Assembly: GCF_010672525.1 (NCBI RefSeq)
Contig: NZ_JAAHGH010000049.1
Span: 1-48,754, forward strand
DNA from: Okeania sp. SIO2B3
Lineage (GTDB): Bacteria; Cyanobacteriota; Cyanobacteriia; Cyanobacteriales; Microcoleaceae
Length of the DNA stretch: 48,754 nucleotides
Reading direction: 5' to 3'
In this document: piece after piece, positions 5,137-24,921 of the stretch
Position numbering within the stretch: position 1 is the first letter of the stretch
Layout of the letters: each line of letters begins with the position of its first letter
Made by a program: the position numbers and the translations under genes
The notes under the pieces: generated by a model
The model's input: only the letters and a program-made list of their open reading frames with translations
The model's database searches: none
Told to the model about the DNA's origin: nothing

Positions 5137-5448
5137 ATGGCCTTAACTATTCCTGATACAATTTCTTCAGCCAGCCGAGGCGAAAAGCGCCTATTCAAGA
5201 TACTTAGAGATGAACTACCAGATGATTTTTTCATCTACTACGAGCCAAATATTAAAGGCTCCTATCCCGATTTTATTATTCTTAGTCCCGAACTTGGACT
5301 ACTAATCTTGGAGGTGAAAGGTTGGAGTGCCGACCAAATTCTTAAAGCAAACCATCAAATATTTGAAAATGATCTTAATCTTCTTCCAAAGCATTATTTA
5401 TGGAAACTCTTAATTTTTCAGCCAGCGCCCGAACATGAGGTTCTCTAA
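5137..5448 (+). pseudogene. Truncated NERD-type nuclease / helicase N-terminus
   Basis: From ATG at 5137 the product begins ALTIPDTISSASRGEKRLFK and contains a PD-(D/E)xK-like core, YPDFIIL ... LLILEVKGW, typical of NERD domains (nuclease-related, often fused to superfamily-I helicases). After about residue 78 (near 5370) the similarity stops. The frame then reads antisense into the 3' end of the A-T-TE gene and ends LLIFQPAPEHEVL, which is not NERD-like. The gene is thus cut at the point where the biosynthetic locus begins. NERD assignment is by motif; truncation is a strong inference. Confidence 0.65.
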
Positions 5449-8128
5449 ACATGGAAGTGTGACCACCAGGAACTTCATAAACCTCCAATTCTCCACTAGC
5501 TAGTTTACCCCAACCCATTTGAGGGTCAACTTGCCATCCTTCAGGTGTTGACTTATGAATAGCTCGGAATAAAGCGACTTTGCCTGGGTAAACTTGGGGA
5601 ACATATTTTCTACCCGCTTGTTTATTAGCTCTTTGTACAATTTGGTTGGGATGGATATTGTCTAAGGAACTTGTATACTTATGGGAAAGCTTGAAGGAAT
5701 TTCTTTGATTTCTCTCTTTAATTCTATGCTTGAACCACTGGAATCTCCCTGTTATTTTCTTGAGGATATAGTTTGCTCCAAGTTTCCAAAAGTTATCAAA
5801 ATGCTCGGAAAGTCGCTGATTTAGTGGTATTCGAGTGAAACATCCTGGTGCTGGAGTATCAAATACAACTAATAGAGCCACCGTTTGACCTTGGGCGATT
5901 AGTAGTTGAGCTACTTCCAAAGCTACCATACCTCCAAAGGAAGAGCCTCCCACAATATAAGGTCCTTCGGGTTGGATAGTTTGTATTTCTTTGATGTAGT
6001 GAGCAGCCATATCTTCTATTTTAGTTAGAGGGGGTTGCTTTCCATCTAAACCTTGTGCTTGCAGTCCATAGAATGGTCGCTCTAAACCTAACTGAAGTGC
6101 TAATCTTCGGTAGTACAACACACTCGCACCAAGAGCGTGGATACAAAATAAAGGGGTTTTAGAACCAAGTGGTTGAATTGGCACTAGCGATCGCCATTGT
6201 GCTGACCATCCTTTTTTACGAATGACGCTGGCTAGTTGTTCAATCGTTGGTGCTTGGAAAAGGGTTGCTAGTGGAATCTTGTTGTGCAATTCCTCCTCAA
6301 TTTGGCTAAACAAATGCACGGCTAATAGGGAGTGACCGCCCAAGTTAAAGAAATTATCTTCGATGCTAATAGGTTGGATGTCTAATGTTTTTCCCCAAAT
6401 GTGGGCTAGTTGGAGTTCTAATTCATCACGGGGTGCAACAAAAGTTTGTTCTGCTTCTTGCTGAATAAGTTCATCAATTTGTTTAATGAGACCATCAAAT
6501 TCACCCGCTTCTAAACGCTGTTTAAGTTGCAAACGTTGAATTTTGCCCGTTGCTGTTCTGGGAATTGCTTCCTTCTCAATGGGAATTATGTAAGTGGGAT
6601 TTACCCCCAAGGATTGAGCTACTTTTCCTCTAATTTGTTTAACTAATTTTGCTAACTGACTATCTTCTGTAATTATTGTGTGGAAAAAGATAGCTAAATC
6701 GTCAGTTTCGCTATCTTGTTGTCGGATAGCACAGGCAATGGTGTAAGCAGGTTCAACACCTTCAACTTCTTCGGCTACTAACTCAATTTCGTGGCAAGAA
6801 AAATTCCGAGCATTGATGATAATAGTTTCTTTTTCACGTCCTGTAATTGTTAATTTTCCATCTTGCAGAAAGCCTAAATCCCCCGTGTTCATCCAACCAT
6901 CTTCAGTAAATAGCTCGCGAGTCAGCTCTGGAGCTTTATAATAGCCTGATGTCATTGATGGACCTGTAACCTGAATGCGACCTATTTGACCTTCTTCAAG
7001 GATACTGCCCTGTTGATCTACTATCCTTATAGAATGTCCTCTTGTTGGCTTGCCGATTTCGACAAAGCGATCGTTATCAGGTGTTTTGGTTAAGGAGAAA
7101 CCTTCTCGACTACCTGCAATTGGTCCACATTCAGTCATGCCATAAGCTGGACGTAAAACATTAGGTCTGAGGTTATATTTACTCAATATATCTAAAAAAC
7201 TTCGGGCGGTTTTAGCAACAATAGGTTCGGCTCCAATGCCTATTTTTTGTACAGAGGAAAAGTCCCAATCTTTGGAAGGATTAGTTTTTAGTTGCTCAAC
7301 AATAAGTGATAAGATAAAGTTAGTTGTTTGGGCATGGGTTACTCGATACTTACTTAAGATATCAAGCCACAATAAGGGATTGCAAATTATAAGTTCTGCT
7401 GGCAAATATATATTTTTTTGAAACCTGTTTGGAAGTATAGTGACTAGACCACTAATGCTTTCAAGGGGAAACCAACTCAAAAGGGTTTGGATTGGGGAAT
7501 CATTATTTTGACTAATCGATTTTTTAAAAAAACGATAAATAAAAGTTTGACTGCTTATTTCAACTAATTTTGGCTTTCCCGTGGTCCCAGAACTAGGTAA
7601 CAGTAACGCTAGTTCATCGGGCTGGAGTAGGTGTAATCTTGTATCTGAACTATGGGTTTCAATTTCTTCAATTATGGCAGTCTTGACATTTTTTTTTCCA
7701 TATAGCTGTAAGCCAGCATGAATTTGTGATGCTAGTTTTGCGTTAGTTAGTATTGTGGGACAGTCTAATTGTTGCCAAATATTATGTAGTTTTAATAAAG
7801 CTTGGTTTGGTTGGGAGTAGTCGGGGGCAATCAGTACAGGGACTGGGATAAAACCACCCATGATACAACTCCAGAGGGCAGGAGCAAAGTCCTGGCTAGT
7901 GTCTATTTGAAAGATGATAGTGTTTCTAGGTTGTAAACCACAAGCTTGTAATCCAGTCAATATCTTTTGAGCACGTTTCCATATCTGGGAATAGGTCTGT
8001 ACAATTTTACTTCCCTCTGATTGGATAAAAATAAGTTGTTTCTCCAAATTTAATTCCACAACATACTTTAAACCCATATTCCACAGGTTGTTTCGGCTAC
8101 CAAGTATTTTTGTATCTTTATTATGCAT
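5375..8128 (-). CDS. Free-standing adenylation-carrier-thioesterase (A-T-TE) protein
   Basis: A 917-residue three-domain enzyme. An adenylate-forming domain (residues ~20-555) has the P-loop SSGTTGKPK, YGMTECGP, the TGDLGF motif and the final ATGKIQR lysine segment. A carrier domain follows with the phosphopantetheine serine in NLGGHSLLA (~598). The C-terminal thioesterase has the nucleophile motif GGSSFGG (~728), an Asp in VVFDTPAPG and the His in GGHTSMF. There is no condensation domain. The A4 region reads SWFPLESISG rather than FDxS, so the Asp that holds an alpha-amino group is absent. A carboxylic, keto or aryl acid substrate is therefore likelier than an amino acid. Domain order and length resemble atromentin/ralfuranone-type A-T-TE synthetases. 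It could be an independent synthetase or the acceptor and release module for the NRPS, whose last domain is a C domain. Confidence 0.85.
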   Translation of the reverse strand: MHNKDTKILGSRNNLWNMGLKYVVELNLEKQLIFIQSEGSKIVQTYSQIWKRAQKILTGLQACGLQPRNTIIFQIDTSQDFAPALWSCIMGGFIPVPVLIAPDYSQPNQALLKLHNIWQQLDCPTILTNAKLASQIHAGLQLYGKKNVKTAIIEEIETHSSDTRLHLLQPDELALLLPSSGTTGKPKLVEISSQTFIYRFFKKSISQNNDSPIQTLLSWFPLESISGLVTILPNRFQKNIYLPAELIICNPLLWLDILSKYRVTHAQTTNFILSLIVEQLKTNPSKDWDFSSVQKIGIGAEPIVAKTARSFLDILSKYNLRPNVLRPAYGMTECGPIAGSREGFSLTKTPDNDRFVEIGKPTRGHSIRIVDQQGSILEEGQIGRIQVTGPSMTSGYYKAPELTRELFTEDGWMNTGDLGFLQDGKLTITGREKETIIINARNFSCHEIELVAEEVEGVEPAYTIACAIRQQDSETDDLAIFFHTIITEDSQLAKLVKQIRGKVAQSLGVNPTYIIPIEKEAIPRTATGKIQRLQLKQRLEAGEFDGLIKQIDELIQQEAEQTFVAPRDELELQLAHIWGKTLDIQPISIEDNFFNLGGHSLLAVHLFSQIEEELHNKIPLATLFQAPTIEQLASVIRKKGWSAQWRSLVPIQPLGSKTPLFCIHALGASVLYYRRLALQLGLERPFYGLQAQGLDGKQPPLTKIEDMAAHYIKEIQTIQPEGPYIVGGSSFGGMVALEVAQLLIAQGQTVALLVVFDTPAPGCFTRIPLNQRLSEHFDNFWKLGANYILKKITGRFQWFKHRIKERNQRNSFKLSHKYTSSLDNIHPNQIVQRANKQAGRKYVPQVYPGKVALFRAIHKSTPEGWQVDPQMGWGKLASGELEVYEVPGGHTSMFREPHVRALAEKLRVSINNALEED

Positions 8129-8594
8129 ACGTTACAGTCTATTGTATAGCAAACTATAATACATAGTATTTTTTACAAACTTCTCCAAAATTTCCTAACC
8201 TGTCTCAACCTGGATTTCAGACTTATCGCTGGAAATCAAAATAGGCAGGGTGAAAACAAAGAAAAATTACAAGATTTAATTTTTCACGATCAATCCCTAG
8301 TAAACGTTGAGTGTCTTGCGGATATTTTTGGAGATACTCCAAAGTCGATTTTGCATCATTTTTTGATTTTTATAGCAGTAAGCCGTTAGCTTTCAGCAAG
8401 AGCGTCCAAGTTCTGCCAATTCAAGCTATTGGCACTTTGTAATTGTCCTAACCTCCGTCGGTATTGCTATACTACTGGGCGTATCCGAATCATCAGAATT
8501 GATTATCTGAAGTCGCCTTAATATATCTCTTGCAAAAGTTACAAAAATCAGCGATTTTTCTATCCTCTTAATCCAATATTGTCATTGCGAGGCG

Positions 8595-8899: not shown

Positions 8900-10285
8900 T
8901 TACCATTCAGCCATCTGTCCTGCAATTCGTCCGAAATGAGAGCCAAATAGTAGTCCTGTTCCACCAGCATAATTATGATAATAAAGTCCACCAGCCAACT
9001 CACCTACTGCAAAAATATTTCGGAAAACATAGCCGGATTTTGAAACAATTCTGGCACTCGAATCAATCTTGATACCTCCATAGCAGAAAGTTAGACCTGC
9101 TCTGACAGGTGCAATATAGAATGGCTTTACTTCAATAGGAGATGGCTTCTCTTTAGACTTGAAGTGTGTAAGATTTATCCTGTGATTCTTAAAATTTTGG
9201 TTGAATTGTGCGATAGTCATCTCTAAATTTTCTACCGGAATTTTTACTGCATAAGCTAAACCTCGCAATGAATCAGCTCTAAAAAGGTTATTAGTTAAAA
9301 AATACCCATGAGATACCTTCTGTATAGAGCAACTGTCAAATATTTGAAATGCAATAGCATCTGGCTGTTTAATAATTGCAGAGCCAAACTTTGCATATAA
9401 AAAATTGGGAAGATCGGCATGCTCATCAAAAAAACGTAAGCCTTTTTTGTTTACTGTAATCCCAAAATTGAAGGCATAACGTGAATTGTTTTGACTTTTT
9501 TCATTATCTCCAGGCAATATTTCACTAAATTTTGAACATTGTGGTGTTGCATGACAAGATGAATAATCACCACTAAGTTTAAATTGATGCTTCAGAGCTA
9601 GCTCGATGCCTTTTCCCGTATTAAAAGGAACACCTCTTAAGTTAATATCTTTCCATTCCTCTCCCAAAAACCGTTTTCTCAGTGTCTTATTTGCCTGAAA
9701 ACTACCACATGCGAGGATAAGATTGCGAGAATAAAAAACTCCTCTGCTCGTAACCACCTCAATTTTCTCTTTGTTAAAAGCAATATCTTGAAGTTCGGTA
9801 TCATACAGAAAATGTGCCCCCATTCGTTCTGCCACAGAAAAGTTAATTTCCTGTAACTTACTGCCTGAACCTTTTATCCGAATCGGAAGACTTCCTGACA
9901 AAATATTTGGCTTTACCTCCCACCTGTGCCCCAAACTATAAAGCCACCGAATTGTTTCAAACCCATGTCTAACTAAACAGGTTAGAATTTCGTGTGAAGC
10001 TTGTCTTTTAGTGATTCGCATAATATCTTGATACATCTGTTCAGGACTATATGACTTATACTCCTTCAGTAATTCACTTCGCCTCGAATCGTCCTTGTCG
10101 ATCAAAAAAAGAATATCTTCTATGGATGTATGAGGAAATCTGAAATTCATAGTCAGAGAACTGTTTCCTCCTCTCAAATATTTGGGTGACTTTTCGACAA
10201 CTAATACCCTCGCGCCTCTTTGGATACCAGATATAGTTGCACATAATCCAGCATTTCCAGCTCCAATAACTATGATGTCATACAT
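8900..10285 (-). CDS. TcuA-like FAD-dependent oxidoreductase
   Basis: A 461-residue flavoprotein of the FAD_binding_2 (fumarate reductase/succinate dehydrogenase flavoprotein, tricarballylate dehydrogenase-like) family. The start is taken at ATG 10285, giving MYDIIVIGAGNAGL with the dinucleotide-binding GxGxxG at residues 8-13. The longer frame opens at a TTG inside the YcaO gene. Other family features are VVEKSP, RGGNSSLTMNFRF and the C-terminal AGGTGLLFGSHFGRIAG that closes the FAD site. Length is normal for single-chain members. Its start is 11 nt downstream of the YcaO stop, so co-translation is likely. In this setting it may dehydrogenate or otherwise oxidise the modified peptide. It is not the FMN nitroreductase-like dehydrogenase that usually oxidises azolines in YcaO pathways. 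Substrate unknown. Confidence 0.8.
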   Translation of the reverse strand: MYDIIVIGAGNAGLCATISGIQRGARVLVVEKSPKYLRGGNSSLTMNFRFPHTSIEDILFLIDKDDSRRSELLKEYKSYSPEQMYQDIMRITKRQASHEILTCLVRHGFETIRWLYSLGHRWEVKPNILSGSLPIRIKGSGSKLQEINFSVAERMGAHFLYDTELQDIAFNKEKIEVVTSRGVFYSRNLILACGSFQANKTLRKRFLGEEWKDINLRGVPFNTGKGIELALKHQFKLSGDYSSCHATPQCSKFSEILPGDNEKSQNNSRYAFNFGITVNKKGLRFFDEHADLPNFLYAKFGSAIIKQPDAIAFQIFDSCSIQKVSHGYFLTNNLFRADSLRGLAYAVKIPVENLEMTIAQFNQNFKNHRINLTHFKSKEKPSPIEVKPFYIAPVRAGLTFCYGGIKIDSSARIVSKSGYVFRNIFAVGELAGGLYYHNYAGGTGLLFGSHFGRIAGQMAEW

Positions 10286-10296
10286 TAGATCTTTAT

Positions 10297-11271
10297 TTAG
10301 CAAAATGGGTCTTCCTCTAAGTATGGGTACTGAATTCTGCTTTTTTCTTTGGTCAGTGCATAACTGCTGTAAGCTCTATATAAAATTAGTGATTGTCTTT
10401 TTTTTATAGGACAAGTATAGATAGTTTCAAATGGAAATTGAATTGCTTTACAAATTTCCATTATATCGTATTTTTGATAGTTGATTTTGGTTGGCGGAAG
10501 GTTAGAAACTTTTATTAAAAAGTAGCGAAGTTTATTCAAAACAGCAGAAGTGCAAAGATTTCTCATTCGTTTCAAGCTTAAAATATTGTTGCTAGTGTCA
10601 CTGCTACTTTTGCACAGGAAGTTTCCTGCCAACATTAGCGCCTCAATTCTGGATGACATAAGAGCATCAGATTGGTTTTCCTTGAGTGAAGAACCACATA
10701 AAAAAATTGGCAAATTTTTATTTTGCAAGACTGCCAAAATGAAAGGTGATGCTTGAAGAGTTGTATAATAGTCTATGAAATATTCAAGAGGAAGATTTTC
10801 ACGACTTCCAATTTTTCTGATCTTTCTGTCCTTATACCAAATTTCACAAAGTATATGTCTTTCAAGCATCTCCAGAATAGCATGTTGTTCGGCTAGATTT
10901 GATTTTGAGTGTGCGCCAAGTCCCGTAGTACCAATTAATGGATTGCCGTTGCGTATCAAATAATCTTTTGCTAACATTATGCGTGTAACCGTTGGATCTA
11001 AATAATTACTGAACAAGAGCGGTTTCATTGAAAGATTTGCTAATGGACTAGCCATAACTCGTTCGAGAATTTCAATTCTGGAGATCAATATAGCTTCATC
11101 AAAACATTTTTTTCCACTGTGACCAAAAAATAAATGACGAATACCTTGTCGATCTATTAGTACAGTTGAACTATCAACATAGTATGTATTCCGATCTAAA
11201 GGATGGGAATAGAAAGTAGAAATAATTGGAATCCCATCAAAATGTCCCTTTATTAAATAATCTTTCTCCAT
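10297..11271 (-). CDS. YcaO-domain protein (ATP-dependent peptide backbone modification)
   Basis: A 324-residue YcaO homologue. Visible motifs are SRIEILERV (residues ~64-72, the SxxxEaiER ATP/Mg element), GTTGLGAHSKSN followed by AEQHAILEMLERHI (~114-140, the second acidic ATP-binding element), and RIEALMLAG (~213). YcaO proteins use ATP to activate a backbone amide, making azolines, thioamides or amidines. At 324 residues it is shorter than many ~400-residue members, and it has no fused E1-like/RRE part. No separate E1 or TfuA gene is in the window. The start codon lies 2 nt after the hydroxylase stop, so the two are translationally coupled. The precursor has no Cys in its C-terminal half, so thiazole formation there is impossible. 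Thioamide, amidine or oxazoline chemistry remain options. Confidence 0.8.
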   Translation of the reverse strand: MEKDYLIKGHFDGIPIISTFYSHPLDRNTYYVDSSTVLIDRQGIRHLFFGHSGKKCFDEAILISRIEILERVMASPLANLSMKPLLFSNYLDPTVTRIMLAKDYLIRNGNPLIGTTGLGAHSKSNLAEQHAILEMLERHILCEIWYKDRKIRKIGSRENLPLEYFIDYYTTLQASPFILAVLQNKNLPIFLCGSSLKENQSDALMSSRIEALMLAGNFLCKSSSDTSNNILSLKRMRNLCTSAVLNKLRYFLIKVSNLPPTKINYQKYDIMEICKAIQFPFETIYTCPIKKRQSLILYRAYSSYALTKEKSRIQYPYLEEDPFC

Positions 11272-11273
11272 AT

Positions 11274-12278
11274 TTACAGTAGATCATTGAAACTGTCTCT
11301 AATACGTTCACCGACTGTAGTTAATTTTGCCTTTTCAGAATAGACAGTATCCAATCCAATTTCTAGTTGTAGCTTGCAAAGTTGCAAGCGATCTCGGAAG
11401 CGAATATCCATACCCATCATAGAAAGCTTCTTAAAAATACTAACCATTCGCTTCAATACAAAAGTTGCATGAAATATTCCACGCATTGGTCTTAGATCGT
11501 CGCGAATTGGGGCACGAAATTCTTTCTGAGAAGATGGATTTAAGACTATTTTGTCATGAAAGAACAAAGCTTCAAGTCTCAAATGTGAAAACTCATGCAC
11601 AATATGTTCAATCCAATATCCAACTTGATCTTCTAGCTCGTGGGGTACTCTTAGCCATATAGCTCCAAAGGTTCGAGGTGAAGTATCACCTCGAAGAACT
11701 TTTCCTCTAAATAGTTTAATATGGGTAACAAACTCCTTGAATTCAGCGAAAAATTCAGGCTCCGCATCTTGAATTAATGTAATTGCTGAACGAATATTTT
11801 CTTGATGTACAGTGAGTTGATTATTCTCAATAGGTAGGATATCTGCACTTTCACCACGAATATTCTTTTGGTCATAAGAACGCAAATGTTTTATGTAAGG
11901 ATATTCCCATGATTCAGTTTCTATGGATGTAATAGTGTATTTACAAGGATATAGCAAGTATAACCCAGAAAAATTTTGGTACATTGTCGCCAATCTAGCT
12001 TTGATAACTGTTACTGTTTTTGTTTTCATGGCCTCACGAAGTTCATATGCCTCAAGAAAAATAAGAGGATGCCAGCGGAATTCCACATCTAACCCTTTAA
12101 TAACCCTAGTTATGTGGCTGCAGTCAATATTTGTATGTTGCAGACAATCTAGATGCATTAGTACACTCGTTTTAACAACTTCTCTTACTGACTTGTTAAT
12201 TTCAAAATTAAGTTTTGAATTTGGAATGACCGTTTGCCAGTCTAAGGGGACTTTACTAATAATTTTATCCATAGACAT
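11274..12278 (-). CDS. aKG-HExxH-type peptide beta-hydroxylase homologue
   Basis: A 334-residue protein. The metal-binding HEFSH is at residues ~228-232, preceded by RTFGAIWLR and followed by a basic/acidic block, FRAPIRDDLRPMRGIFHATF. This layout is typical of the HEXXH-motif RiPP proteins now known as aKG-HExxH peptide beta-hydroxylases, which use iron and 2-oxoglutarate rather than acting as peptidases. The start is uncertain: ATG at 12278 or 12272, or a GTG at 12296 extending the frame. It is the first gene of the tightly packed hydroxylase-YcaO-FAD unit and lies 830 bp downstream of the precursor gene. Candidate substrate residues in the precursor are the Asp/Asn of its C-terminal part. 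Function as hydroxylase is by family; the target is inference. Confidence 0.78.
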   Translation of the reverse strand: MSMDKIISKVPLDWQTVIPNSKLNFEINKSVREVVKTSVLMHLDCLQHTNIDCSHITRVIKGLDVEFRWHPLIFLEAYELREAMKTKTVTVIKARLATMYQNFSGLYLLYPCKYTITSIETESWEYPYIKHLRSYDQKNIRGESADILPIENNQLTVHQENIRSAITLIQDAEPEFFAEFKEFVTHIKLFRGKVLRGDTSPRTFGAIWLRVPHELEDQVGYWIEHIVHEFSHLRLEALFFHDKIVLNPSSQKEFRAPIRDDLRPMRGIFHATFVLKRMVSIFKKLSMMGMDIRFRDRLQLCKLQLEIGLDTVYSEKAKLTTVGERIRDSFNDLL

Positions 12279-12377
12279 TCTTGAAAAAATTAACACCCTA
12301 CAATGGTTGAAATCTTTATCTAACTTTGCTTAGGGAAATTTATAGTTGAACGAATTATTTTGATTATTGACAATATT

Positions 12378-12661
12378 AGAGTTGTTAAGAAATAAAAATT
12401 AAACAATGCTCAAAATCTTATAGAATAAGCTTTTCAGGATATCCGGAAGAAAAAAGCACTATAAACTATAGAGTTGTTGGTAATTAAGCTAAAAAAATGG
12501 CTAAAACCCTTATCAGTCAAAGTTTATAGCATTCTTTATGCCTTAAATCGTAAAAGCCTTATATGGTAAGCTTTTGAGCATTGTTCAACTTTTATTTCCC
12601 AACAACTCTTATGATTAATAAAGGTTTGAGCCATTTTTTTTACTTAATTCCCAACAACTCT
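12378..12661. repeat. Two interleaved inverted-repeat (MITE-like) elements
   Basis: Four ~45-50 nt arms occur in the order A-B-A'-B'. A (12378-12430) pairs with A' (12555-12609), and B (12470-12512) pairs with B' (12620-12661). All outer ends carry AGAGTTGTT / AACAACTCT. A and A' share AACAATGCTCAAAA, B and B' share an AAAATGGCT-like core. The pairs cannot both fold fully at once. This fits one MITE inserted into, or recombined with, a second copy. The rest of the 830-bp gap between the hydroxylase and precursor genes (12662-13108) holds no supportable gene, only a short palindrome around GTGCTTAAAGCAC (12699-12711). Confidence 0.65.
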
Positions 12662-13108
12662 ATTATCAATAAAGAACTTGAAAAGTCTGCGTTCGCTTTG
12701 CGTGCTTAAAGCACCGCAGGGATTTCTCAACTACTAGAGTTAATTGATAATCAATGTCTTAGCAGATTTTGCCTATAAGCCTTAATGGTTTTATGTTACA
12801 GATGTTTTGTGATATCGAACTCAGGTGAACTCTTATTGTTTGTGGAATTACCAATACGCATCAAAATCATGACTGCTTCAGATGGCTATAGTTGTTGCAA
12901 GTAACCCGCTAGGCAATGTGAGGTTTTTATAGCAGCGCCAGATTGCTTAGGACACTCTAATTATGCCTTAAGTTATTACAGGGTATTTGGTAATAATAAA
13001 ATGTTCTAAGAGTCATGGCGGCTGCTATATTTTGATTTCCTGAGATGTCTATAGTTCTATAACCAAGGCTAAGTACATTAGTTTACACACCTCATGTCAA
13101 TGAGCAGG

Positions 13109-14115: not shown

Positions 14116-17100
14116 TCAATATTTAATTTCATAATTCTGGGTAATTCTTTGCAATAAGAGAATAAAATCTTTCGTGATTTGCTTTATAAAGTTAGTACCA
14201 AATAAGTCAGTTCTATATTTAAAAAACCCAGATACATTTCCCTGACATAAATTAATGACTAATCCCAAAGTACGGTTTGTAAAACGAACATCAATTGGTA
14301 TATAGTTAGATTTTACATTTGTAATCGATAATGGTTGTGAACTTTGATAGTTAAGCTGAAAAAATACCTGAGATAATAGAGAGTATGTGTTATTGTCCCA
14401 ACTGATCGGTTGTAAAGACATAATCGAACCAGGCAAAAACTGAAAATAATGAGCCTCAACAACTGCCTTGTAGACTTTATCTAATAACTCTTTGAAGGTC
14501 AAATTGCTACTGAACCGGATTCGTATTAATTGACTATTAGAAAAATAACCTATTACTCCCCTAAATTCTTTCCTAACACGATTTGAAAAAGAAGATGCCA
14601 CAACAATATCTTTTTTATCTGTGTATTTATACAATAAGAGTTGAAAAACTGACATAAAAAGAATAAATAGTGTAACTCCTTGAGCCTGACTAAGAAATTT
14701 TAGTTCTTTATATAGTGAATTAGATAAAGTAAATACTTCATATCTACTATTAGGAATTTCTGTCTTTATCTTAGATGCTTGAAATAGCGGTGAGGCTTTT
14801 AAAAGATGTTTTTTTCTTTTGGAAATAAGCTCCTTAAAATATTCAGTTTCTAGCTGTTTTTGTTCCCAAAGAACAAAATCTGAGTATTGAGTAGAAAGTT
14901 TTGGCAAGGGAGAGGTTTGACGAACGGAGAAAGCATTATAGAGTATTGATATTTCCTTGAGAAAAATATCGAATGACCAACCATCAAATATCATGTGATC
15001 AATTATAAATAGAAGAATATTTTCTTGTTTACGAATGCGAAAAAGTTGTAGTCGCATGAGGGGAAATTGCGATATGTCGAATGGCTTATGAATTTCTCTA
15101 ATAGTATGCTTATTGACGTATTCTTCTTGAGCGTTTTCTGAAAGATGACTTATATCAAAAACTGGTATAAATAGAATTAGTTCTGATTGAACACTCTGAG
15201 TTGGTTGTCCTGCTATAGCAGTAAAGTTAGTTCGTAAAGCTTCATGCCGACGCACCACTTCGTTAAATGCTTGCTCCAAAGCAACTACATCGAGTGATCC
15301 TATTAAACGTATGACTGTAAAAGGATTAATAACAAATCTGTTAGGATTAGATATACAACGGGACCATCGGCGTTGTTGGCTGAGTGAGAGAGAAAAATTA
15401 TTCCTCCGCAAAGTAGGGCTAGAAATAGGGAAGTTTTGTAAAACCTGCTCCAACCTCTCAATATGATCTGCAAGTTTCTTAATAGTTGGTCTTTCTAAGA
15501 TACTACGCAAAGATAGTTCATAATGAAAAGCTTCACTAATTTGAAACAGTAGCTGAGTAGCTAAAAGGGAATGCCCTCCCAATTCAAAGAAGTTATCGTG
15601 AATGCCAACTTGCTCTACCCCTAAAAGATTGCTCCAAATTGTCGCCAATATTTCCTCTGTAGGTGTACGAGGAGCAACAAAAATGGCTTCGGAGCTGAAG
15701 TTCGAGGAATCGGGACTCGGTAATGCTCTTCTATCTACTTTCCCATTCGGGGTAAGGGGCATAGCCTCCAATATGACAAAAGCTGAAGGCATCATATAAT
15801 TTGGTAATTTTTCCTTGAGAAAGCGACGTAGTTTACTGATATTAATAGCTTGTTCAACGGAAATGATATAGGCGACAAGACATTTATTTCCGAGGCTATC
15901 TTCTCTAGCAATAACCACTGTTTTCTGAACATCCTGGTGTTGAGACAAAACCGCTTCAACTTCACCCAGTTCAATGCGAAAACCACGAATCTTAACCTGA
16001 TTATCAATCCGACCGAGAAACTCAATGTTGCCATCAGGTAAATAACGAACCTTATCCCCAGTCTTGTATAATTTTGCATTAGGTTCGTCGCTAAAGGGAT
16101 TAGAGATAAATTTATCAGTCGTTAATTCAGGACGATTCAGGTAGCCTCGGGTTAAACCTGCACCTCCAATATGCAACTCACCAGCAATACCAATAGGTAC
16201 AGGTTGAAGTTGAGAATTTAAAATATAGATTTTGGTATTGTTAATAGGATGACCAATAGAAGGAAGATGTTGTTGATTTTCTGTTTTAGCAACAACCCCA
16301 GAAGTTGTTACAACCGTATTTTCCGTGGGGCCATAGTTATTAATCAACCTGAAAGGTAAAGATATTGATGGGTAATCATGAAGCTTATCCCCTCCTGTTA
16401 AGATAATCCGCAAATCAGTCTTTTCAGTCCATTCCAGAGATAACAAAAGCTCTACTAAAGGCGTTGGCAAAAAACAAATTGTGATTTTTTGGGATATTAA
16501 CCAGTTTTTAAGCTTTTCTGCTAAACCAATAATTTCAGGGCTAATGATAAAAAGACTTGCCCCACTTGCCAAGTAAGGCCAAATTTCCCAGACTGAAGCA
16601 TCAAATGCTGTTGATGCTATTTGAGTGGCTCTGTCTAATGGAGTAAGTTCAAAAGTAAGCTGATGCCAGAAAACTAAATTTGATAATCCTCTATGAGGAA
16701 TCAGCACTCCCTTGGGCATTCCTGTAGAGCCAGAAGTATAAATAACATAGACTAAATTCTCTAACTTGACACAGCTACATAAGTTGTTATTGCTCTCTTG
16801 AGAAATAACCTTCCAATCTGAATCTAAACGAACTAATTGTGCCTTATGTACGGGCAATGTCTCCACAAGCTTCTGTTGAGTAAGTAGTAACGATACCTGA
16901 GCATCTTCGAGCATAAATTTCAGACGCTCTTGGGGATAATTTGGATCTAAAGGCACATAAGCCCCACCTGCCTTGAGAATCCCTAACAAGCCTACAATCA
17001 TCAAGGGCGATCGCTCCACACAAATCCCCACCAGTACCTCTGCTCCCACTCCCAGCTTTTGCAAATAGTGTGCTAACTGATTAGCGCGACAATTCAATTC

Positions 17101-20100
17101 CTTATAGGTCAACTGTTGCTCTTCAAACACCACAGCAACTGCATCAGGAGTTTTCTTCACTTGTTCCTCAAATAACTGATGTATACACTTATCTTGAGGA
17201 AACTCGGCTTCAGTATCATTCCACTCCACCAGTAACTGATGTCGCTCTTGTGCTGTCAATAAGGGCAAATCCGAAACTCGCTGTTGAGGGTTCGTGACAA
17301 TCCCCTCCAGTAAAGTCTGAAAATGCCCACTCATCCGACCTATCGTTGCTGCATCAAATAAGTCTGTGTTGTATTGCCATACTCCTTTTAGCCCTTGCTC
17401 CGTTTCTTCCATCAATAGGGTTAAATCAAACTTAGCTACTGTATTCTCTATCTCGAAAGGAATCAGGGTCAAATCAGGTAACTCTAACTTTTCCTTGGGT
17501 GCATTCTGTAGTACAAACATTACCTGAAACAGAGGGCTGTGGCTCAGAGACCGTTCCGGTTGCAAAACTTCTACAACTTGCTCAAACGGCACATCCTGGT
17601 GAGCATAAGCCGACAAAGCAACCTGCCGTACCTGTTCTAACAGCTCTTGAAATGTAGGCTCTCCCGCCAGACTAGCGCGGAATACTAAAGTATTCACGAA
17701 AAATCCAATCAAAGACTCTGTTTCCAGACGATTGCGATTGGCAAGGGGAGAACCAACCACAATATCTTCTTGCCCATTGTAACGGTATAATAAGACCACA
17801 AAAGCAGTTAATAAAGACATAAACAGAGTTACTTCTGACTTCTGAGTTAGGGTTTTCAACTGCTGAGTTAGTTCAGCACTTAGCTCAAAAGACTCGCTAC
17901 ATCCTTGAAAAGTCTGTACTGGAGGGCGAGGGTGGTCAGTTGGCAGTTCTAACAAAGGTGGAATCCCTTGCAGTTGTTGCTTCCAGTAGTTAAGTTGACT
18001 TTCCAGCACCTCTCCTTGTAACCATTGTCGCTGCCAATCAGCAAAATCGGCATATTGAATAGACAGGTTTGGTAGAGGAGAAGCATCTCCTTGGGAGAAA
18101 GCTGTATAAAGGCTGGAAAACTCTTGCAGGAAAATTCCTAGCGACCAACCATCAGAGACAATATGGTGCATAGCGAGCAGCAGAACATGAGACTGCTCAC
18201 CTAACTGTAGTAGGGTAACGCGCAGCAACGGACCCTTAACTAAATCGAACGGTCGCAGTGCTTCTTCTTTCCCTAAGTGTCTTACTTCACCAGTCTGCTC
18301 CTCCTCTGCTAATCCTCGCAAGTCAACTACTGACAATTTTCCAGTCCAGGTTGCGCCAATTACCTGAACCGGAGAACCATTAACTCTGTCGAAAGTCGTG
18401 CGTAGCACCTCATGACGGTTGATAATTTCTTGGATAGCTCTCTCTAAAGCCCCTCTATTCAGCTTACCAATGAGGCGTAGGGCTAGGGGAATATTATAAA
18501 TTCCACTCGCTCCTTCCAACTGGTCAATAAACCACAGTCGCTGTTGGGCAAAAGAAAGGGGTATTTTGCCCTCTCTTGGTACTGGGACAATCGTTGGAGT
18601 AAGCAGACTTTGGTTTTGACTGTGACTAGCCTCAATCGACTCACCTAACTCAGCGATGGTAGGTGCTTCAAATAAGCAACGTACTGGTAACTCAACTGAA
18701 AATGCCTCCCGTAATCGTGAGATAACTTGGGTTGCTAAAAGGGAATGTCCCCCTAATTCAAAGAAGTTATCGTAAATGCCAACTTGTTCTAATTCCAGAA
18801 GATTGCTCCAAATACTCGCTAATACTTCCTCTGTTGGTGTACGAGGAGGAACAAAACTGGTTTCGAGACTGAGGTGGGAGGAATCAGGAATTGGTAATGC
18901 TTTTCTATCTACTTTTCCATTAGGGGTGAGGGGGATAGCTTCCAACTTAACAAAAACTGAAGGTATCATGTATTCAGGCAACTTTTGCTTAAGAAAGCAA
19001 CGTAGCTCACTAATCTCGACAGTTTGTTCAACGGGAATGATATAGGCAACAAGACGTTTATCTCTGGGGCTATCCTCTCTGGCAATAACCACTGTTTTCT
19101 GAACATCCGGGTGTTGAGATAAAACCGCTTCAACTTCACCTAGTTCAATCCGAAAGCCCCGAATCTTAACCTGATTGTCAATCCGACCAATAAACTCAAT
19201 ATTGCCGTCAGATAAATAACGAACCAAATCTCCTGTTTTGTATAGCTTTGTATTTGATTCATCACTAAAGGGATTGGGGATAAATTTCTCTATTGTAAAA
19301 TCAGAGCGATTTAGATAGCCCCTTGCTAAACCAGCCCCTCCAAGATGTAGCTCACCTGTTACACCGATAGGAACAGGTTGCTGATAGGCATCTAATATAT
19401 AGACTTGTGTATTAGGAATTGGACGACCAATGGGAGGAGCTTTTTCCCAATCCCGCTCCACTAACGCATAAGTCGAATAAACAGTGTCTTCAGAAGGACC
19501 ATAAAGATTAAACAGTTTCTCAATACTATCCTGTTGATAGATAAGTTGTACCAGGCGTTGAGGTAAAGCTTCTCCAGCTAAGTTAATTGTGCGAACGTTT
19601 TCAGGAATTTCCTTAGCTCTTACTAATTCAGCGATAGCCGAAGGAACCGTATTGATTAACGTCACATCCTCAACAGCAGGCAAAGTAGGCAGATGCAGGA
19701 TATTTTCCGCCAGAATAATCTTGCCACCACAGCTTAAAGGTACAAATAACTCAAAAACCGAAATATCGAAGCAAAAAGACGTTGATGCTAGAACTCCAGC
19801 AAGCTGTGCTGTGGTAAACACCTCTGTTGCCCAACTCAAAAGAGCAACTACACTGCGATGTCCAACTGCAACCCCTTTGGGCTTACCTGTCGAACCTGAA
19901 GTGTAGAGGACATAAGCTAAGTTGTCAAACTGAATATTACTTGTTAAATTATCAACACCTTCTTCTACCCAAAGGTCATAATTGTCTAAATCAACTACTT
20001 GTGCGGAATACTGGGGAAGTCCCTCAATAAGTTTCTGTTGAGTAAGTAGTAAGGATACCTGAGTATCTTCCAGCATAAAAGCCAAACGCTCTTGGGGATA

Positions 20101-23100
20101 ATTTGGGTCTAAAGGCAGATAAGCCCCACCTGTTTTGAGAATTCCCAGAAGTCCAATTACCATTAAAGGCGATCGCTCTACACAAATTCCCACCAAAGTC
20201 TCTGGTTTGACACCCAACTTTTGTAAATAATAGGCCAACTGATTGGCTTTACTATTCAATTCCCGATAAGTCAATCGCTGGTCAGCAAAAACCAGAGCTA
20301 TTGCATCCGGTGTTTTCTCCACCTGTTCTTCAAACAATTGATGAATGCACTTATGCTTTGGATAATCTAAAGCAGTATCATTCCATTCCACCAACAATTG
20401 ATTTAGCTCTGCTTGTGTCAGTAGGGGTAATTCAGAAACTCGTATATCTGGGTTCGCGACAATCCCCGCTAACAGCGTTTGAAAATGTCCGACCATCCGA
20501 GATATAGTCGTCTCATCAAACAAATCGCTGTTATATTCTAAGACCCCTCTCAGCTCTGATTCCTTCTCTTCTATTGCTAAAGTTAAATCAAACTTAGCGG
20601 TGACACTCTCTATCTCTAAAGGAGTCAAAGTTAAACCTGGAAACTCCCAATCTTCAGACTCAGCATTCTGTAAAACAAACATCACCTGAAACAGAGGATG
20701 GTAACTCAGATTTCGTTCAGGTTGTAGTTCCTCCACTAACTTCTCAAACGGCAAATCCTGATAGCAATAAGCATCCAAAGTAATCTGCTGCGTCCGTTTG
20801 AGTAATTCTCGGAAGCTAGGATTACCAGAAAGGTCAACTCGTAACACTAAAATATTAACGAAAAAGCCAATCAAAGACTCAATTTCTTGACGATTACGGT
20901 TAGCCATGGGTGTACCCACAACAATATCTTCTTGATGAGTGTAGCGACTTAGAAGTGTCATAAACACTGCTAAGAGTGTCATAAATAGAGTTGTTCCTGA
21001 TTGGCGACCGAGTTTTTTAAGTTGCTGTGTTAGCTCCCCATTTAATTGAAATGTCTGGCTACTACCTCGGAAAGATTGAACAGGAGGACGAGGATGGTCA
21101 GTAGGCAAGTCTAACAGAGGAGGAACATCAGCTAATTGCTGCTGCCAATAATTAAGCTGACTTTCTAACACTTCGTCTTGTAACCACTGCCTCTGCCAGT
21201 GCGCAAAATCAGCATATTGGATAGGTAAATGGGGGAGAGAAGCAGATTCTCCACATGAAAAAGCTTTATAAAGGAGGGAAAGTTCTCGGAATAAAATGCC
21301 CATAGACCAACCATCAGAGACAATATGATGGATTGTTAACAGCAGAAAATAAGACTCCCTTCCCAACCGCAACAGCGTCAGACGTAGTAGAGGAAACTGA
21401 GTCAAGTCAAAACTATTTTGACTCTCATCTCTAACTAATCGTTGTATCTCAGTTGTTTGTGCAATTTCAGGCAAAGTTTCTAAATTTACCGAAGAAATAG
21501 AAATATTTACCTGATTATGAATTATTGGAATAGCCACTCCATCGATCACAGAAAAAGTAGTCCGTAGAATCTCATGGCGTTCCACGATTTCATTGATTGA
21601 TTGTTGTAAAACAGCTTCATTCAGTGTTCCGGTTAAATAGAAGCCAGATAAAATATTGTAAGTGGTATTTTGTTCCTCTAATTGATTGAGAAACCACAAT
21701 CTTTGTTGAGCAAAAGATAAAGTAAGTCTTTCTTTTCTAGGAATAGGTTGAAGAGTAATTGTCGGAGAAATATTTGATTCCTGAGAGCGGATGTTTTCTA
21801 TGTGCTTAGTAAAATCCGCTACTGTCGAAAATTCAAACAAACAGCGTATAGGCAGTTCAAGGGAGAACACATCACGCACCCGAGAAATAACCTGAGTTGC
21901 TTTTAAGGAATGCCCACCAATATCGAAGAAATCATCATTAATACCGACTTGCCCTAATCCCAAAACCTCTGCCCAAATACCTGCCAGTAGTTCCTCCACT
22001 GGAGTACGAGGAGCAACAAAATTCTCTGAATCGTCAATTTCTGCCCAGTTTATTGTTGGTAAGGCACTTCGATCTACTTTCCCATTGGTAGTTAACGGCA
22101 GTGTGTCTAGCACCATAAAGCCTGACGGTATCATGTAATTTGGTAACTTCTGTTTAAGAAAGCGACGCAAATCATCAATCGCAATGGTGTGTCTTTGATT
22201 CAGAACTACATAAGCAACTAAATTTTTACTCTCAACATTATCTTCCCTGATAATGACCACACACTCTCTTACTGCTGGATGTTGTGCCAATATAGTTTCG
22301 ATTTCACCGAGTTCAATGCGAAAGCCACGAATCTTTACCTGATTGTCAATCCGACCAATAAACTCTATGTTTCCATCCGGTAAATAGCGGGCTAAGTCGC
22401 CTGTTTTGTAGAGTTTGGCATTTTGTTCATCGCTAAACGAATTTGGGATAAATCTCTCAGCCGTTAATTCTGGGCAATTTAGATAACCTCGTGCTAAACC
22501 TGTACCCCCAATATGCAACTCACCTTCAACTCCAATGGGTACAGGTTGAAGTTGAGAGTTAAGGATGTAAACTTGTATGTTGGCAATTGGTCGTCCGATG
22601 ACTGACTTGATATTAGATGTTCTGATGTCACAAATCGTACTATCTACAGTACATTCTGTAGGGCCATAAACATTGAAAAATTGGATATGTTTAGCTTGGT
22701 TCAAACTTGACCACATTGATGGATTGATAGGTTCGCCACCAACCAGTATGCACTCAGGGCCAAGATTACTATCTAATAAACCTGCGGAAATAAGCAATCC
22801 TAGTTGAGATGGTGTGCAGTCAAATACATCTATCTGGCGACGCTGTAAATAAGATAACAGAGCAGTTCCATCAAAACGTAAATCCTCTGGGATAATTTCG
22901 AGGGTGTGACCCGATAGGAGCTGAATGATTTGTTTGACAGAGGTATCAAAAGCTAAAGAACCATTTAAACTAACTTTAAGTTGGTCTTTTTTATGTTCTG
23001 TATAAATTATTTGATTAAGAGCCATTGCTAGATTAATCACCGAGCTATGCTCAATCATTACTCCTTTAGGCTGCCCTGTTGTACCTGAAGTGTAGATAAC

Positions 23101-24921
23101 ATAGGACAAATTATTGCCTTTTACGTTACTCTTCGGATTTTCTTTACTCTCTTGAATAATTGCCTCCCAGTCGGCATCTAAACAGATTGGACGAGGCTTA
23201 TGTTTAGGCAACCTAGCTACCAACTTCTCCTGAGTCAACAACACTGGCATCCCTGAATCAGACAGTAAGTGGGCTAGACGCTCAGTGGGATAGTTTGGGT
23301 CTAACGGTACATAAGCTCCACTAGCTTTGAGAATACCTAAGAGACTTACTAGCATCTCCGGCGATCGCTCTATACAAATCCCTACTAAAACTTCCGGTCC
23401 TACTCCTAATTTCTGCAAGTAATGTGCTAATTTATTTGCTCTAGTATTCAACTCTTGGTAGGTCAACTGTTGACCTTCAAATACGACTGCCACACGTTCG
23501 GGAGTTCGTTTCACCTGTTCCTCAAATAACTGATGAATACATTTATTTTTGGGAAATTCTGCCTGAGTATCATTCCACTCTACTAAAAACTGATGTTTTT
23601 CTGCTGCTGTTAAAAATGGTAATTCACTCAAACATTGTTGAGAATTAACGATGAAACCATTAAGTAAAGTATCTAAATGTCCTAGAATGCGGGCAATCGT
23701 CTCATCATTAAATTGACTAGAGTCATAATCAATTTTAAGAATTAACTCTGATTCAGCATACACAGCTAGAGTCAGAGGATAGTTAGGCTGTTCGAGAAGC
23801 TCAAATTCTCTGGATTCCCAATTTTTTCCATGCCTACGCAGAGCAGTATTCAATTCATAATTCTCAAAAACTAAAAGGCTTTCAAACAAAGACAATCCTT
23901 TGGGAACTTCACTCCATTCCTGAATCTTTACTAAAGGAGTATGTTCATAATCCCGCAGAGCAATCCATTGTGCCCGCAATTCCTTCAGCCATTGCAACAA
24001 TGGTTTATCAAAATCAACCTGAACCCGCACTGGTAGGGTATTGATAAAAAGTCCTACCATAGAATCCATATCTTTGAGGGCTGAACGTCTACAGGCTCTA
24101 GTTGCTCCAAAAACTACATCCTCTTGCCCGCTATAACGATTTAGTAATAAAGCCCATGCTGCTTGAACTAAGGTATTGAGAGTCAACTGGTTTTTCTGAG
24201 CTAAATCCTGCAAAGCTGAGGTACATTCTTGGGATAATCGAATTTTTTGGGTGTTATAAGATGATATACTTTCAGTTTTTGATTTAGTAGCGATTAACAA
24301 CTGAGTCGGTGATTCAAAACCCTGTAATTGTTGCTTCCAGAATTTTTCTGCTTCTATTAATGACTGTTGCCCAAGCCAATTAATATAATTGCCATAAGGA
24401 TGAGCTAGTTCTAATTTAAGTTCTTGATTTTGGCAAAACGCTTCATAAAGAGAAAAAACTTCTTTGAGAATAATAACAATAGAACGACCATCCAACAAAG
24501 CATGATGGAACGTCCAAACTAGCTTGTAATCTCTCTCAGGCAACTGAAAAAGTGCAAAACGCATCAGTGGAGCTTCTGCAATTTTAAAACCTTTTTGGCG
24601 ATCGCCTTGAAGATAAGAGTTTAACTGACTTGACTGCTCCGATAGAGACAGATTTTGCCAATTCTGCTGTTCTATTGGCAGTTTAACTTCCTTATATACC
24701 GACTGCTGAAGATTATGTGAATCATCCCAGTCAAAACCAGTTCTTAATATAGAGTGGCGCTCGACAACCAGTTGCCAACTTTGTATCAGATTTGAAACAT
24801 TAAGATTTTCATCCAAACTACAAATGACTTGCTCAATGTAAACTCCAGATGAATGCTCATATAGACTATGAAACAGCATACCATTTTGCATTGGTGATAG
24901 TGGGTAGCTTTCTTCTATCAT
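14116..24921 (-). CDS. Non-ribosomal peptide synthetase, C-A-T-C-A-T-C-A-T-C
   Basis: About 3,600 residues; the ATG at 24921 (MIEESYPLSPMQNGMLF) is preferred over a TTG three codons upstream. Order: C1 (HHALLDG), A1, T1 (DIGGHSL, ~1007), C2 (HHIVSDG), A2, T2 (ELGGHSL, ~2062), C3 (HHIVSDG), A3, T3 (~3120), C4 (DHMIFDG, ~3313). No epimerisation, methylation or thioesterase domain is present. Aligning A4-A5 with GrsA, I read the pocket codes DTKDLGVVD (close to the Glu/Gln code DAKDLGVVD), DIFNNALVY (close to the Ala code DLFNNALTY) and DAWFLGNVV (the standard Leu code). A Glx-Ala-Leu order is thus predicted. C1 at the very N-terminus implies an upstream acyl or peptidyl donor or a starter acid. 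C4 has no following module, so it must pass the chain to a partner or act in release. The first catalytic His of C4 is replaced by Asp; the second is kept. Confidence 0.93.
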   Translation of the reverse strand: MIEESYPLSPMQNGMLFHSLYEHSSGVYIEQVICSLDENLNVSNLIQSWQLVVERHSILRTGFDWDDSHNLQQSVYKEVKLPIEQQNWQNLSLSEQSSQLNSYLQGDRQKGFKIAEAPLMRFALFQLPERDYKLVWTFHHALLDGRSIVIILKEVFSLYEAFCQNQELKLELAHPYGNYINWLGQQSLIEAEKFWKQQLQGFESPTQLLIATKSKTESISSYNTQKIRLSQECTSALQDLAQKNQLTLNTLVQAAWALLLNRYSGQEDVVFGATRACRRSALKDMDSMVGLFINTLPVRVQVDFDKPLLQWLKELRAQWIALRDYEHTPLVKIQEWSEVPKGLSLFESLLVFENYELNTALRRHGKNWESREFELLEQPNYPLTLAVYAESELILKIDYDSSQFNDETIARILGHLDTLLNGFIVNSQQCLSELPFLTAAEKHQFLVEWNDTQAEFPKNKCIHQLFEEQVKRTPERVAVVFEGQQLTYQELNTRANKLAHYLQKLGVGPEVLVGICIERSPEMLVSLLGILKASGAYVPLDPNYPTERLAHLLSDSGMPVLLTQEKLVARLPKHKPRPICLDADWEAIIQESKENPKSNVKGNNLSYVIYTSGTTGQPKGVMIEHSSVINLAMALNQIIYTEHKKDQLKVSLNGSLAFDTSVKQIIQLLSGHTLEIIPEDLRFDGTALLSYLQRRQIDVFDCTPSQLGLLISAGLLDSNLGPECILVGGEPINPSMWSSLNQAKHIQFFNVYGPTECTVDSTICDIRTSNIKSVIGRPIANIQVYILNSQLQPVPIGVEGELHIGGTGLARGYLNCPELTAERFIPNSFSDEQNAKLYKTGDLARYLPDGNIEFIGRIDNQVKIRGFRIELGEIETILAQHPAVRECVVIIREDNVESKNLVAYVVLNQRHTIAIDDLRRFLKQKLPNYMIPSGFMVLDTLPLTTNGKVDRSALPTINWAEIDDSENFVAPRTPVEELLAGIWAEVLGLGQVGINDDFFDIGGHSLKATQVISRVRDVFSLELPIRCLFEFSTVADFTKHIENIRSQESNISPTITLQPIPRKERLTLSFAQQRLWFLNQLEEQNTTYNILSGFYLTGTLNEAVLQQSINEIVERHEILRTTFSVIDGVAIPIIHNQVNISISSVNLETLPEIAQTTEIQRLVRDESQNSFDLTQFPLLRLTLLRLGRESYFLLLTIHHIVSDGWSMGILFRELSLLYKAFSCGESASLPHLPIQYADFAHWQRQWLQDEVLESQLNYWQQQLADVPPLLDLPTDHPRPPVQSFRGSSQTFQLNGELTQQLKKLGRQSGTTLFMTLLAVFMTLLSRYTHQEDIVVGTPMANRNRQEIESLIGFFVNILVLRVDLSGNPSFRELLKRTQQITLDAYCYQDLPFEKLVEELQPERNLSYHPLFQVMFVLQNAESEDWEFPGLTLTPLEIESVTAKFDLTLAIEEKESELRGVLEYNSDLFDETTISRMVGHFQTLLAGIVANPDIRVSELPLLTQAELNQLLVEWNDTALDYPKHKCIHQLFEEQVEKTPDAIALVFADQRLTYRELNSKANQLAYYLQKLGVKPETLVGICVERSPLMVIGLLGILKTGGAYLPLDPNYPQERLAFMLEDTQVSLLLTQQKLIEGLPQYSAQVVDLDNYDLWVEEGVDNLTSNIQFDNLAYVLYTSGSTGKPKGVAVGHRSVVALLSWATEVFTTAQLAGVLASTSFCFDISVFELFVPLSCGGKIILAENILHLPTLPAVEDVTLINTVPSAIAELVRAKEIPENVRTINLAGEALPQRLVQLIYQQDSIEKLFNLYGPSEDTVYSTYALVERDWEKAPPIGRPIPNTQVYILDAYQQPVPIGVTGELHLGGAGLARGYLNRSDFTIEKFIPNPFSDESNTKLYKTGDLVRYLSDGNIEFIGRIDNQVKIRGFRIELGEVEAVLSQHPDVQKTVVIAREDSPRDKRLVAYIIPVEQTVEISELRCFLKQKLPEYMIPSVFVKLEAIPLTPNGKVDRKALPIPDSSHLSLETSFVPPRTPTEEVLASIWSNLLELEQVGIYDNFFELGGHSLLATQVISRLREAFSVELPVRCLFEAPTIAELGESIEASHSQNQSLLTPTIVPVPREGKIPLSFAQQRLWFIDQLEGASGIYNIPLALRLIGKLNRGALERAIQEIINRHEVLRTTFDRVNGSPVQVIGATWTGKLSVVDLRGLAEEEQTGEVRHLGKEEALRPFDLVKGPLLRVTLLQLGEQSHVLLLAMHHIVSDGWSLGIFLQEFSSLYTAFSQGDASPLPNLSIQYADFADWQRQWLQGEVLESQLNYWKQQLQGIPPLLELPTDHPRPPVQTFQGCSESFELSAELTQQLKTLTQKSEVTLFMSLLTAFVVLLYRYNGQEDIVVGSPLANRNRLETESLIGFFVNTLVFRASLAGEPTFQELLEQVRQVALSAYAHQDVPFEQVVEVLQPERSLSHSPLFQVMFVLQNAPKEKLELPDLTLIPFEIENTVAKFDLTLLMEETEQGLKGVWQYNTDLFDAATIGRMSGHFQTLLEGIVTNPQQRVSDLPLLTAQERHQLLVEWNDTEAEFPQDKCIHQLFEEQVKKTPDAVAVVFEEQQLTYKELNCRANQLAHYLQKLGVGAEVLVGICVERSPLMIVGLLGILKAGGAYVPLDPNYPQERLKFMLEDAQVSLLLTQQKLVETLPVHKAQLVRLDSDWKVISQESNNNLCSCVKLENLVYVIYTSGSTGMPKGVLIPHRGLSNLVFWHQLTFELTPLDRATQIASTAFDASVWEIWPYLASGASLFIISPEIIGLAEKLKNWLISQKITICFLPTPLVELLLSLEWTEKTDLRIILTGGDKLHDYPSISLPFRLINNYGPTENTVVTTSGVVAKTENQQHLPSIGHPINNTKIYILNSQLQPVPIGIAGELHIGGAGLTRGYLNRPELTTDKFISNPFSDEPNAKLYKTGDKVRYLPDGNIEFLGRIDNQVKIRGFRIELGEVEAVLSQHQDVQKTVVIAREDSLGNKCLVAYIISVEQAINISKLRRFLKEKLPNYMMPSAFVILEAMPLTPNGKVDRRALPSPDSSNFSSEAIFVAPRTPTEEILATIWSNLLGVEQVGIHDNFFELGGHSLLATQLLFQISEAFHYELSLRSILERPTIKKLADHIERLEQVLQNFPISSPTLRRNNFSLSLSQQRRWSRCISNPNRFVINPFTVIRLIGSLDVVALEQAFNEVVRRHEALRTNFTAIAGQPTQSVQSELILFIPVFDISHLSENAQEEYVNKHTIREIHKPFDISQFPLMRLQLFRIRKQENILLFIIDHMIFDGWSFDIFLKEISILYNAFSVRQTSPLPKLSTQYSDFVLWEQKQLETEYFKELISKRKKHLLKASPLFQASKIKTEIPNSRYEVFTLSNSLYKELKFLSQAQGVTLFILFMSVFQLLLYKYTDKKDIVVASSFSNRVRKEFRGVIGYFSNSQLIRIRFSSNLTFKELLDKVYKAVVEAHYFQFLPGSIMSLQPISWDNNTYSLLSQVFFQLNYQSSQPLSITNVKSNYIPIDVRFTNRTLGLVINLCQGNVSGFFKYRTDLFGTNFIKQITKDFILLLQRITQNYEIKY

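Follow-up and report, generated by a model that had tools for sequence, protein, structure and literature searches.

The 48,754-nucleotide stretch of DNA from the marine cyanobacterium Okeania sp. SIO2B3 analysed here (the window, contig C194 of a 10.0 Mb genome) most likely encodes, judging from its sequence, a RiPP-type cluster lying beside an independent NRPS. Two enzymes of the cluster, an HExxH-type peptide beta-hydroxylase and a stand-alone adenylation, carrier and thioesterase (A-T-TE) protein, have relatives in other bacteria that are fused to each other or encoded side by side.

Organization of the Window

Six genes stand in a row on the minus strand and encode an NRPS, a small peptide, an HExxH protein, a YcaO-like protein, a TcuA-like flavoprotein and an A-T-TE protein (Table 1). 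The sequence-only reading had described them in this way, and the list of open reading frames and the domain scans agree with it on all six. The two short gaps that it gave for the tailoring genes, 2 nt between the HExxH and YcaO genes and 11 nt from the YcaO gene to the ATG at 10285, are both correct by coordinates. The other spacings are 830 nt between the NRPS and peptide genes, 812 nt between the peptide and HExxH genes and 771 nt between the flavoprotein and A-T-TE genes, so the HExxH and A-T-TE genes are separated by two genes and the last of these gaps. A promoter and terminator scan gave signals not above those of shuffles. The window has 44 open reading frames of at least 80 aa, of which 11 were scanned with Pfam. 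Short plus-strand frames with WD40 and NERD matches, possibly remnants, lie beside the A-T-TE gene (4547-5448), and a HAF-repeat protein and PEP-CTERM-like proteins are encoded upstream of the NRPS (25826-29370). Shared strand and order are by themselves weak evidence; the fusions found in other genomes exceed chance.

Table 1. Features of the cluster and the adjoining NRPS, in order of position in the window.
Feature	Position	Strand	Basis and remarks
A-T-TE (adenylation, carrier, thioesterase)	5375-8128	minus	Pfam AMP-binding, PP-binding, thioesterase
TcuA-like FAD protein	8900-10303 (ATG at 10285)	minus	NF006130
YcaO-like protein, 324 aa, C-terminus DPFC	10297-11271	minus	Pfam YcaO E 1e-4, below cut-off
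aKG-HExxH-type peptide beta-hydroxylase	11274-12296	minus	TIGR04267; start may be ATG 12278 or 12272
Imperfect inverted repeats	12373-12666		52-nt arms 87%, 81-nt arms 75% complementary; between peptide and HExxH genes
Candidate precursor peptide, 58 aa	13109-13285	minus	ORF with AACGGAGACTTTT before ATG
NRPS C-A-T-C-A-T-C-A-T-C	14116-24930 (ATG at 24921)	minus	Pfam

The HExxH Hydroxylase and its Relatives

By its sequence the HExxH protein belongs to the aKG-HExxH peptide beta-hydroxylase family, and hydroxylation of a peptide by it is predicted. The marks of the family are all present: a score above the cut-off of NCBIfam TIGR04267 (63.7 bits against 40), HExxH with a downstream His, and the fold of ChlH, whose HExxH domain (8s5f) is the best fold match of the structure model (pLDDT 86.3; TM 0.59, rmsd 8.2 Å). 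The protein carries HEFSH at residue 234 and GIFHA at residue 273. All nine rows of an alignment keep HExxH and, downstream of it, the stretch Arg-Pro-x-x-Gly-x-x-His without change, and a profile built from nine HExxH relatives matches ChlH 8s5f with E 1.3e-20. As far as excerpts of the two reports go, HExxH enzymes hydroxylate RiPP precursors at Gln, with backbone cleavage (PMC12636437), and at C3 of Pro in a ribosomal peptide (PMC13060819).

Counting its own genome, the window protein finds matches in 6 of 386 genomes of the phylum and 8 of 61 of the family, and the HExxH profile matches 14 of 340 genomes of the order. The phylum and family matches other than itself are 24-38% identical, mostly over partial length. 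The nearest relatives found come from Bacteroidota and Chlamydiota MAGs (L050, 36%; L051, 39%; L052, 34%). The HExxH tree, in which placements are not firm because several branches are long, joins the window protein with Bacteroidota/Chlamydiota MAG proteins (97/91), its neighbours being L050, L051, L052 and L101. Since both the nearest relatives and the tree placement lie in these MAGs, the sequences suggest lateral acquisition of the gene. HExxH searches, in counts that include the starting genome, gave matches in 3 of 341 genomes around L055, 2 of 129 around L052 and 2 of 217 around L051. HExxH genes were also seen on Pantoea and Xenorhabdus plasmids (L021, L022 and L023); an MFS transporter is the direct neighbour in L021, and in L023 one gene separates the two.

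Physical Links between HExxH and A-T-TE Proteins

In two other Okeania genomes, presumably Okeania hirsuta (NZ_RCBY01000209.1) and Okeania sp. SIO2C9 (NZ_JAAHGO010000012.1), HExxH and A-T-TE form a single ORF of 1444 aa (L061 and L065). In L061 the HExxH region occupies residues 264-435 and is followed by AMP-binding, PP-binding and thioesterase domains; the HExxH-fused protein matches the window A-T-TE at 46% over 918 aa. Upstream of each fusion are two tandem small peptide genes with a shared leader, whose products hardly vary in their N-terminal part (MKSLNYSQLNPEQK..., MINSINYSQLNQEQK...) but differ in a Gly-rich tail. The link extends to other lineages in the form of abutting or overlapping genes. 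A 56-aa LLGF peptide in Bradyrhizobium (L055) precedes HExxH and an AMP-binding/PP-binding/thioesterase/DUF7024 protein, which lie in a single frame, and in an alphaproteobacterial genome (G821, L103) the HExxH gene overlaps the following A-T-TE gene; a precursor peptide was looked for at L103 and none was found. At 10550-10640 of L055 a single TAG codon stands between the in-frame HExxH and A-T-TE parts, which may reflect either two starts or a recent split.

A six-frame scan of 27 other HExxH loci found A-T-TE at four and YcaO at one, and neither a TcuA-like protein nor a C domain at any, absences that are soft because the flanks differ in length (loci of 3 to 21 kb). Duplicates, the plasmid loci L021-L023 and the short-flank loci L007-L009, L012, L090-L092 and L107 do not enter the count. 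The A-T-TE-linked proteins occupy two parts of the HExxH tree, L014 being joined to the Okeania fusions (100/98) and L103 to L055 (91/81), and both parts are separate from the group of the window. On this distribution, either A-T-TE would have been recruited repeatedly or an ancient link would often have been lost. Because L050, L051, L052 and L101, the tree neighbours of the window protein, have no A-T-TE in the flanks covered, the pairing in the window itself is argued from proximity and analogy.

An exclusive link is weakened by the occurrence of A-T-TE without HExxH. A-T-TE matches at E 1e-100 were found in 12 of 60 family genomes, most of them limited to the A domain; apart from the window protein and the two fusions, matches at two places extend over the T and TE parts. 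One (L067, genome G430) encodes a full A-T-TE, 34% to that of the window, with no HExxH in 18 kb, and the other (L066, genome G431, at a contig edge) encodes T-TE and part of A (53%) with no HExxH in 3.3 kb. Both genomes gave zero HExxH matches in the family-genome search. The A-domain tree does not resolve the window and fusion proteins as sisters, and a plasmid search with the L055 A-T-TE at E 1e-60 found none. No description of an HExxH and A-T-TE pairing was found in the titles and abstract openings of the open-licence literature.

The A-T-TE Protein and its Possible Substrate

The A-T-TE protein has the carrier motif GGHS at residue 597 and the thioesterase motif GSSFG at residue 728. Its closest solved structure is McyG A-PCP (4r0m, E 1.4e-132), and its best NCBIfam matches, none of which reaches the cut-off, include fatty acyl-AMP ligase models. 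The McyG A-PCP and fatty-acyl AMP ligase loading modules have the same type of A domain; unlike them, the window protein continues from A-T to TE and has relatives joined to HExxH, namely the Okeania fusions. In the alignment an acidic residue occupies the position of the Asp that binds the amino acid in NRPS A domains, so the protein may activate an amino acid instead of a carboxylic acid of the McyG or fatty-acid type. The window TE keeps Ser and His (GSSFG, GGH). The thioesterase-like domains of L055 (10586-14002) and L103 (6979-10002) have a Cys nucleophile and a Tyr at the aligned catalytic His; with Cys replacing Ser and Tyr replacing His, the chemistry of these alphaproteobacterial domains may differ from that of the window TE.

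The YcaO-Like Protein and the Flavoprotein

The YcaO-like protein scores 22.2 bits against Pfam PF02624, below the cut-off of 25.7. Its relative in the Chlamydiae MAG L052, which it matches at E 5e-19, passes that cut-off with 44.3 bits, and both proteins terminate in DPFC; other YcaO enzymes generally have a Pro-rich C-terminal end. The window protein has EILER at 67 and EMLER at 134, which were compared with what we take to be the ATP-site Glu/Arg stretches of YcaO enzymes, and E67, E70, R71, E134, E137 and R138 are common to it and the L052 protein. The structure model is unusable (pLDDT 33.6) and the best solved-structure match has E 0.013. In L052 the gene order is a 43-aa peptide, HExxH, YcaO and a MatE exporter. 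Among 386 cyanobacterial genomes the YcaO-like protein was found in one, that of the window; none was found on plasmids, and a concatenated HExxH and YcaO scan of genome contigs confirmed zero relatives.

The flavoprotein scores 347.9 bits against NF006130, under the equivalog cut-off of 369, and is 34% identical to Deinococcus TcuA in the plasmid search. Searching 60 family genomes with it at E 1e-30 gave only its own match. The trio of HExxH, YcaO and flavoprotein was seen at no locus besides the window.

Candidate Precursor Peptides

The short precursor-like gene expected beside the modifying enzymes of a RiPP cluster is present as a predicted 58-aa peptide, which is acidic, has VAQE repeats and contains one Cys, two Ser and no Thr; it lacks the Cys/Ser/Thr-rich core expected of an azole-type TOMM RiPP. 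In its comparison with the 43-aa peptide of L052, 2 of 2000 shuffles attained the observed score, and the match lies within a repetitive stretch. Comparisons with L050, L051 and L101 gave scores reached by 462, 1395 and 1561 of 2000 shuffles, and those with the L061 and L055 peptides by 304 and 541. The L052 peptide against L050 and L051 gave 1702 and 480 of 2000, while L050 and L051 have matching peptides (0 of 2000). NCBIfam at E 0.1 returned zero matches for the L102, L061 and window peptides. As the L052 match is weak and the L050, L051 and L101 comparisons are at shuffle level, the window peptide is a plausible though unproven candidate for the precursor.

LLGF-type peptides adjoin HExxH in 5 of 19 loci scanned (L055, L102, L013, L053 and L062), a 25-aa frame with LGFR in L022 being left out of the count. 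In L102, L013, L053 and L062 the peptides beside the HExxH enzymes form a family with an LLGF leader and AK(I/V)G motifs; the L055 peptide has LLGF and no AK(I/V)G motif. L013 (6855-7961) encodes five LLGF-type peptides adjoining HExxH and a RimK-like ATP-grasp protein, and L102 (about 8074-8330) a peptide with five GAK(I/V)G repeats beside HExxH.

These peptides bear on the reading that RiPP-type enzymes were recruited to a non-ribosomal pathway, with HExxH hydroxylating a T-bound acid or amino acid and the small peptide irrelevant. The fusion of HExxH with A-T-TE would fit such recruitment, which gains further support from an enzyme annotated as a lantibiotic dehydratase that is reported to function in an NRPS-PKS cluster (PMC11212132). 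Against it, shared-leader small peptides adjoin HExxH in both Okeania fusions and in the five LLGF loci, and the L050 and L051 peptides match each other; recruitment of this kind is considered unlikely.

The NRPS as a Probable Neighbouring Pathway

The NRPS has four condensation, three AMP-binding and three PP-binding stretches and ends in a fourth C domain (C4) without a TE. Its A-domain motifs presumably specify Glu/Gln, Ala and Leu, in agreement with the sequence-only reading. The sequence-only reading had proposed that thioester logic and RiPP tailoring meet in one product. This part of the proposal gains support for A-T-TE, fused to HExxH in L061 and L065 and adjoining it in L055 and L103, but not for the NRPS. 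Tailoring sets without an NRPS, which that reading had named as the first of two findings against itself, are what was found: HExxH, HExxH-YcaO and HExxH-A-T-TE all occur without a C-domain protein in the flanks covered (3 to 21 kb in all), at 27 of 27 other loci, and none of these loci pairs the tailoring genes with a C-domain NRPS, as conserved co-occurrence would require. In four other Okeania genomes the terminal C domain has no close relative, its best match being 35%. The NRPS as an integral part of the cluster was accordingly rejected as the main reading, and it is probably a neighbouring pathway or a window-specific addition. C-T-TE proteins with a C domain about 35% identical to the terminal C of the NRPS are encoded in two Okeania genomes (L072, 1354-3951; L073, 1354-3957).

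A full hybrid, in which the NRPS chain either is transferred to the tailored peptide on release by the terminal C domain or continues to A-T-TE as the last module (C // A-T-TE), seems improbable. The six genes share one strand, the NRPS ends in C without TE and the cluster also encodes an A-T-TE that has one, C4 retains the second His and DG of HHxxxDG, and the acidic residue of A-T-TE that aligns with the amino-acid-binding Asp would suit it. It is opposed by the lack of a C-domain protein at the 27 other HExxH loci scanned, including the four with A-T-TE, by the isolation of C4 among the Okeania genomes, by the 830 nt between the NRPS and peptide genes, and by the A domain of A-T-TE, which is nearest McyG-type acid activators and would by inference offer no amine for C4. 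A product joining Glx-Ala-Leu with a precursor fragment, as had been envisaged, finds no support beyond proximity.

Proposed Pathway

The reading to which we give about an even chance is a RiPP-type cluster in which the 58-aa peptide is tailored by HExxH, YcaO, the flavoprotein and the stand-alone A-T-TE, the NRPS being separate. Comparison of sequences gives the family membership of HExxH, the A-T-TE architecture, the HExxH/A-T-TE ties elsewhere and the recurrence of HExxH-YcaO; from these we infer the peptide as substrate, every reaction and the reaction order. HExxH would hydroxylate the beta position of, for example, an Asp, Asn, Gln or Pro residue. YcaO would then spend ATP to activate a backbone amide, and ring formation through the new hydroxyl is an attractive option for a peptide that is Ser/Cys-poor and Thr-free; the flavoprotein would oxidise or reduce the YcaO product. 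The A domain would adenylate a carboxylic acid and load it on the carrier, from which the TE, as an acyltransferase, would pass it to the new hydroxyl (O-acylation). For a hydroxylase fused to A-T-TE, hydroxylation followed by acylation is the simplest reading. A more specific version, held at somewhat under an even chance, is that HExxH and A-T-TE form one machine, a single polypeptide in Okeania, in which a hydroxyl is made on the peptide and then esterified or lactonised via the carrier thioester, the window adding YcaO cyclodehydration of the hydroxylated residue; this would be an undescribed RiPP logic.

The same fusion and operon evidence fits a reading in which A-T-TE acts on the ribosomal peptide itself, its C-terminal carboxylate being adenylated and held as a thioester on T before the TE macrolactonises it onto the HExxH hydroxyl. 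TEs do cyclise chains in NRPS. This reading is unlikely, as the closest relatives of the A domain activate small or fatty acids and no A domain is known to accept a ribosomal peptide.

Relation to Known Systems

ChlH, BpmH, PflC/PosC and PesO resemble the window protein in family, in HExxH with a downstream His, in fold and in having small peptides nearby. The characterised aKG-HExxH enzymes, as the available parts of the reports describe them, partner radical SAM, MNIO, nitroreductase or asparagine-synthetase-like enzymes, whereas the window has YcaO, a flavoprotein and A-T-TE. Lipidated RiPPs include, besides prenylated cyanobactins, the lipolanthines, goadvionins and selidamides (PMC9505594, in excerpt), which carry an acyl group on a ribosomal peptide as is proposed, and only proposed, for the window. 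They use polyketide partners or GNAT enzymes, whereas the window has an NRPS-type A-T-TE that is hydroxylase-fused in relatives. No GNAT or PKS partner as in selidamides or lipolanthines, and no TfuA or E1-like partner, was found among the 11 of 44 window ORFs scanned with Pfam. YcaO-dependent RiPPs comprise azol(in)es, thioamides and amidines. The window likewise has a YcaO-like gene beside a peptide-modifying enzyme and a small peptide, but the composition of its peptide and the DPFC end of its YcaO set it apart.

Peptide synthesis on the ribosome and on assembly lines is normally separate. If the proposed pathway is true, a genetically programmable peptide would gain an NRPS-style acylation or cyclisation step. 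The HExxH family would gain A-T-TE as a partner type, one unmentioned in the excerpts of the HExxH papers cited here. The fusion or adjacency of HExxH and A-T-TE in relatives of the window proteins suggests a new way to modify ribosomal peptides.
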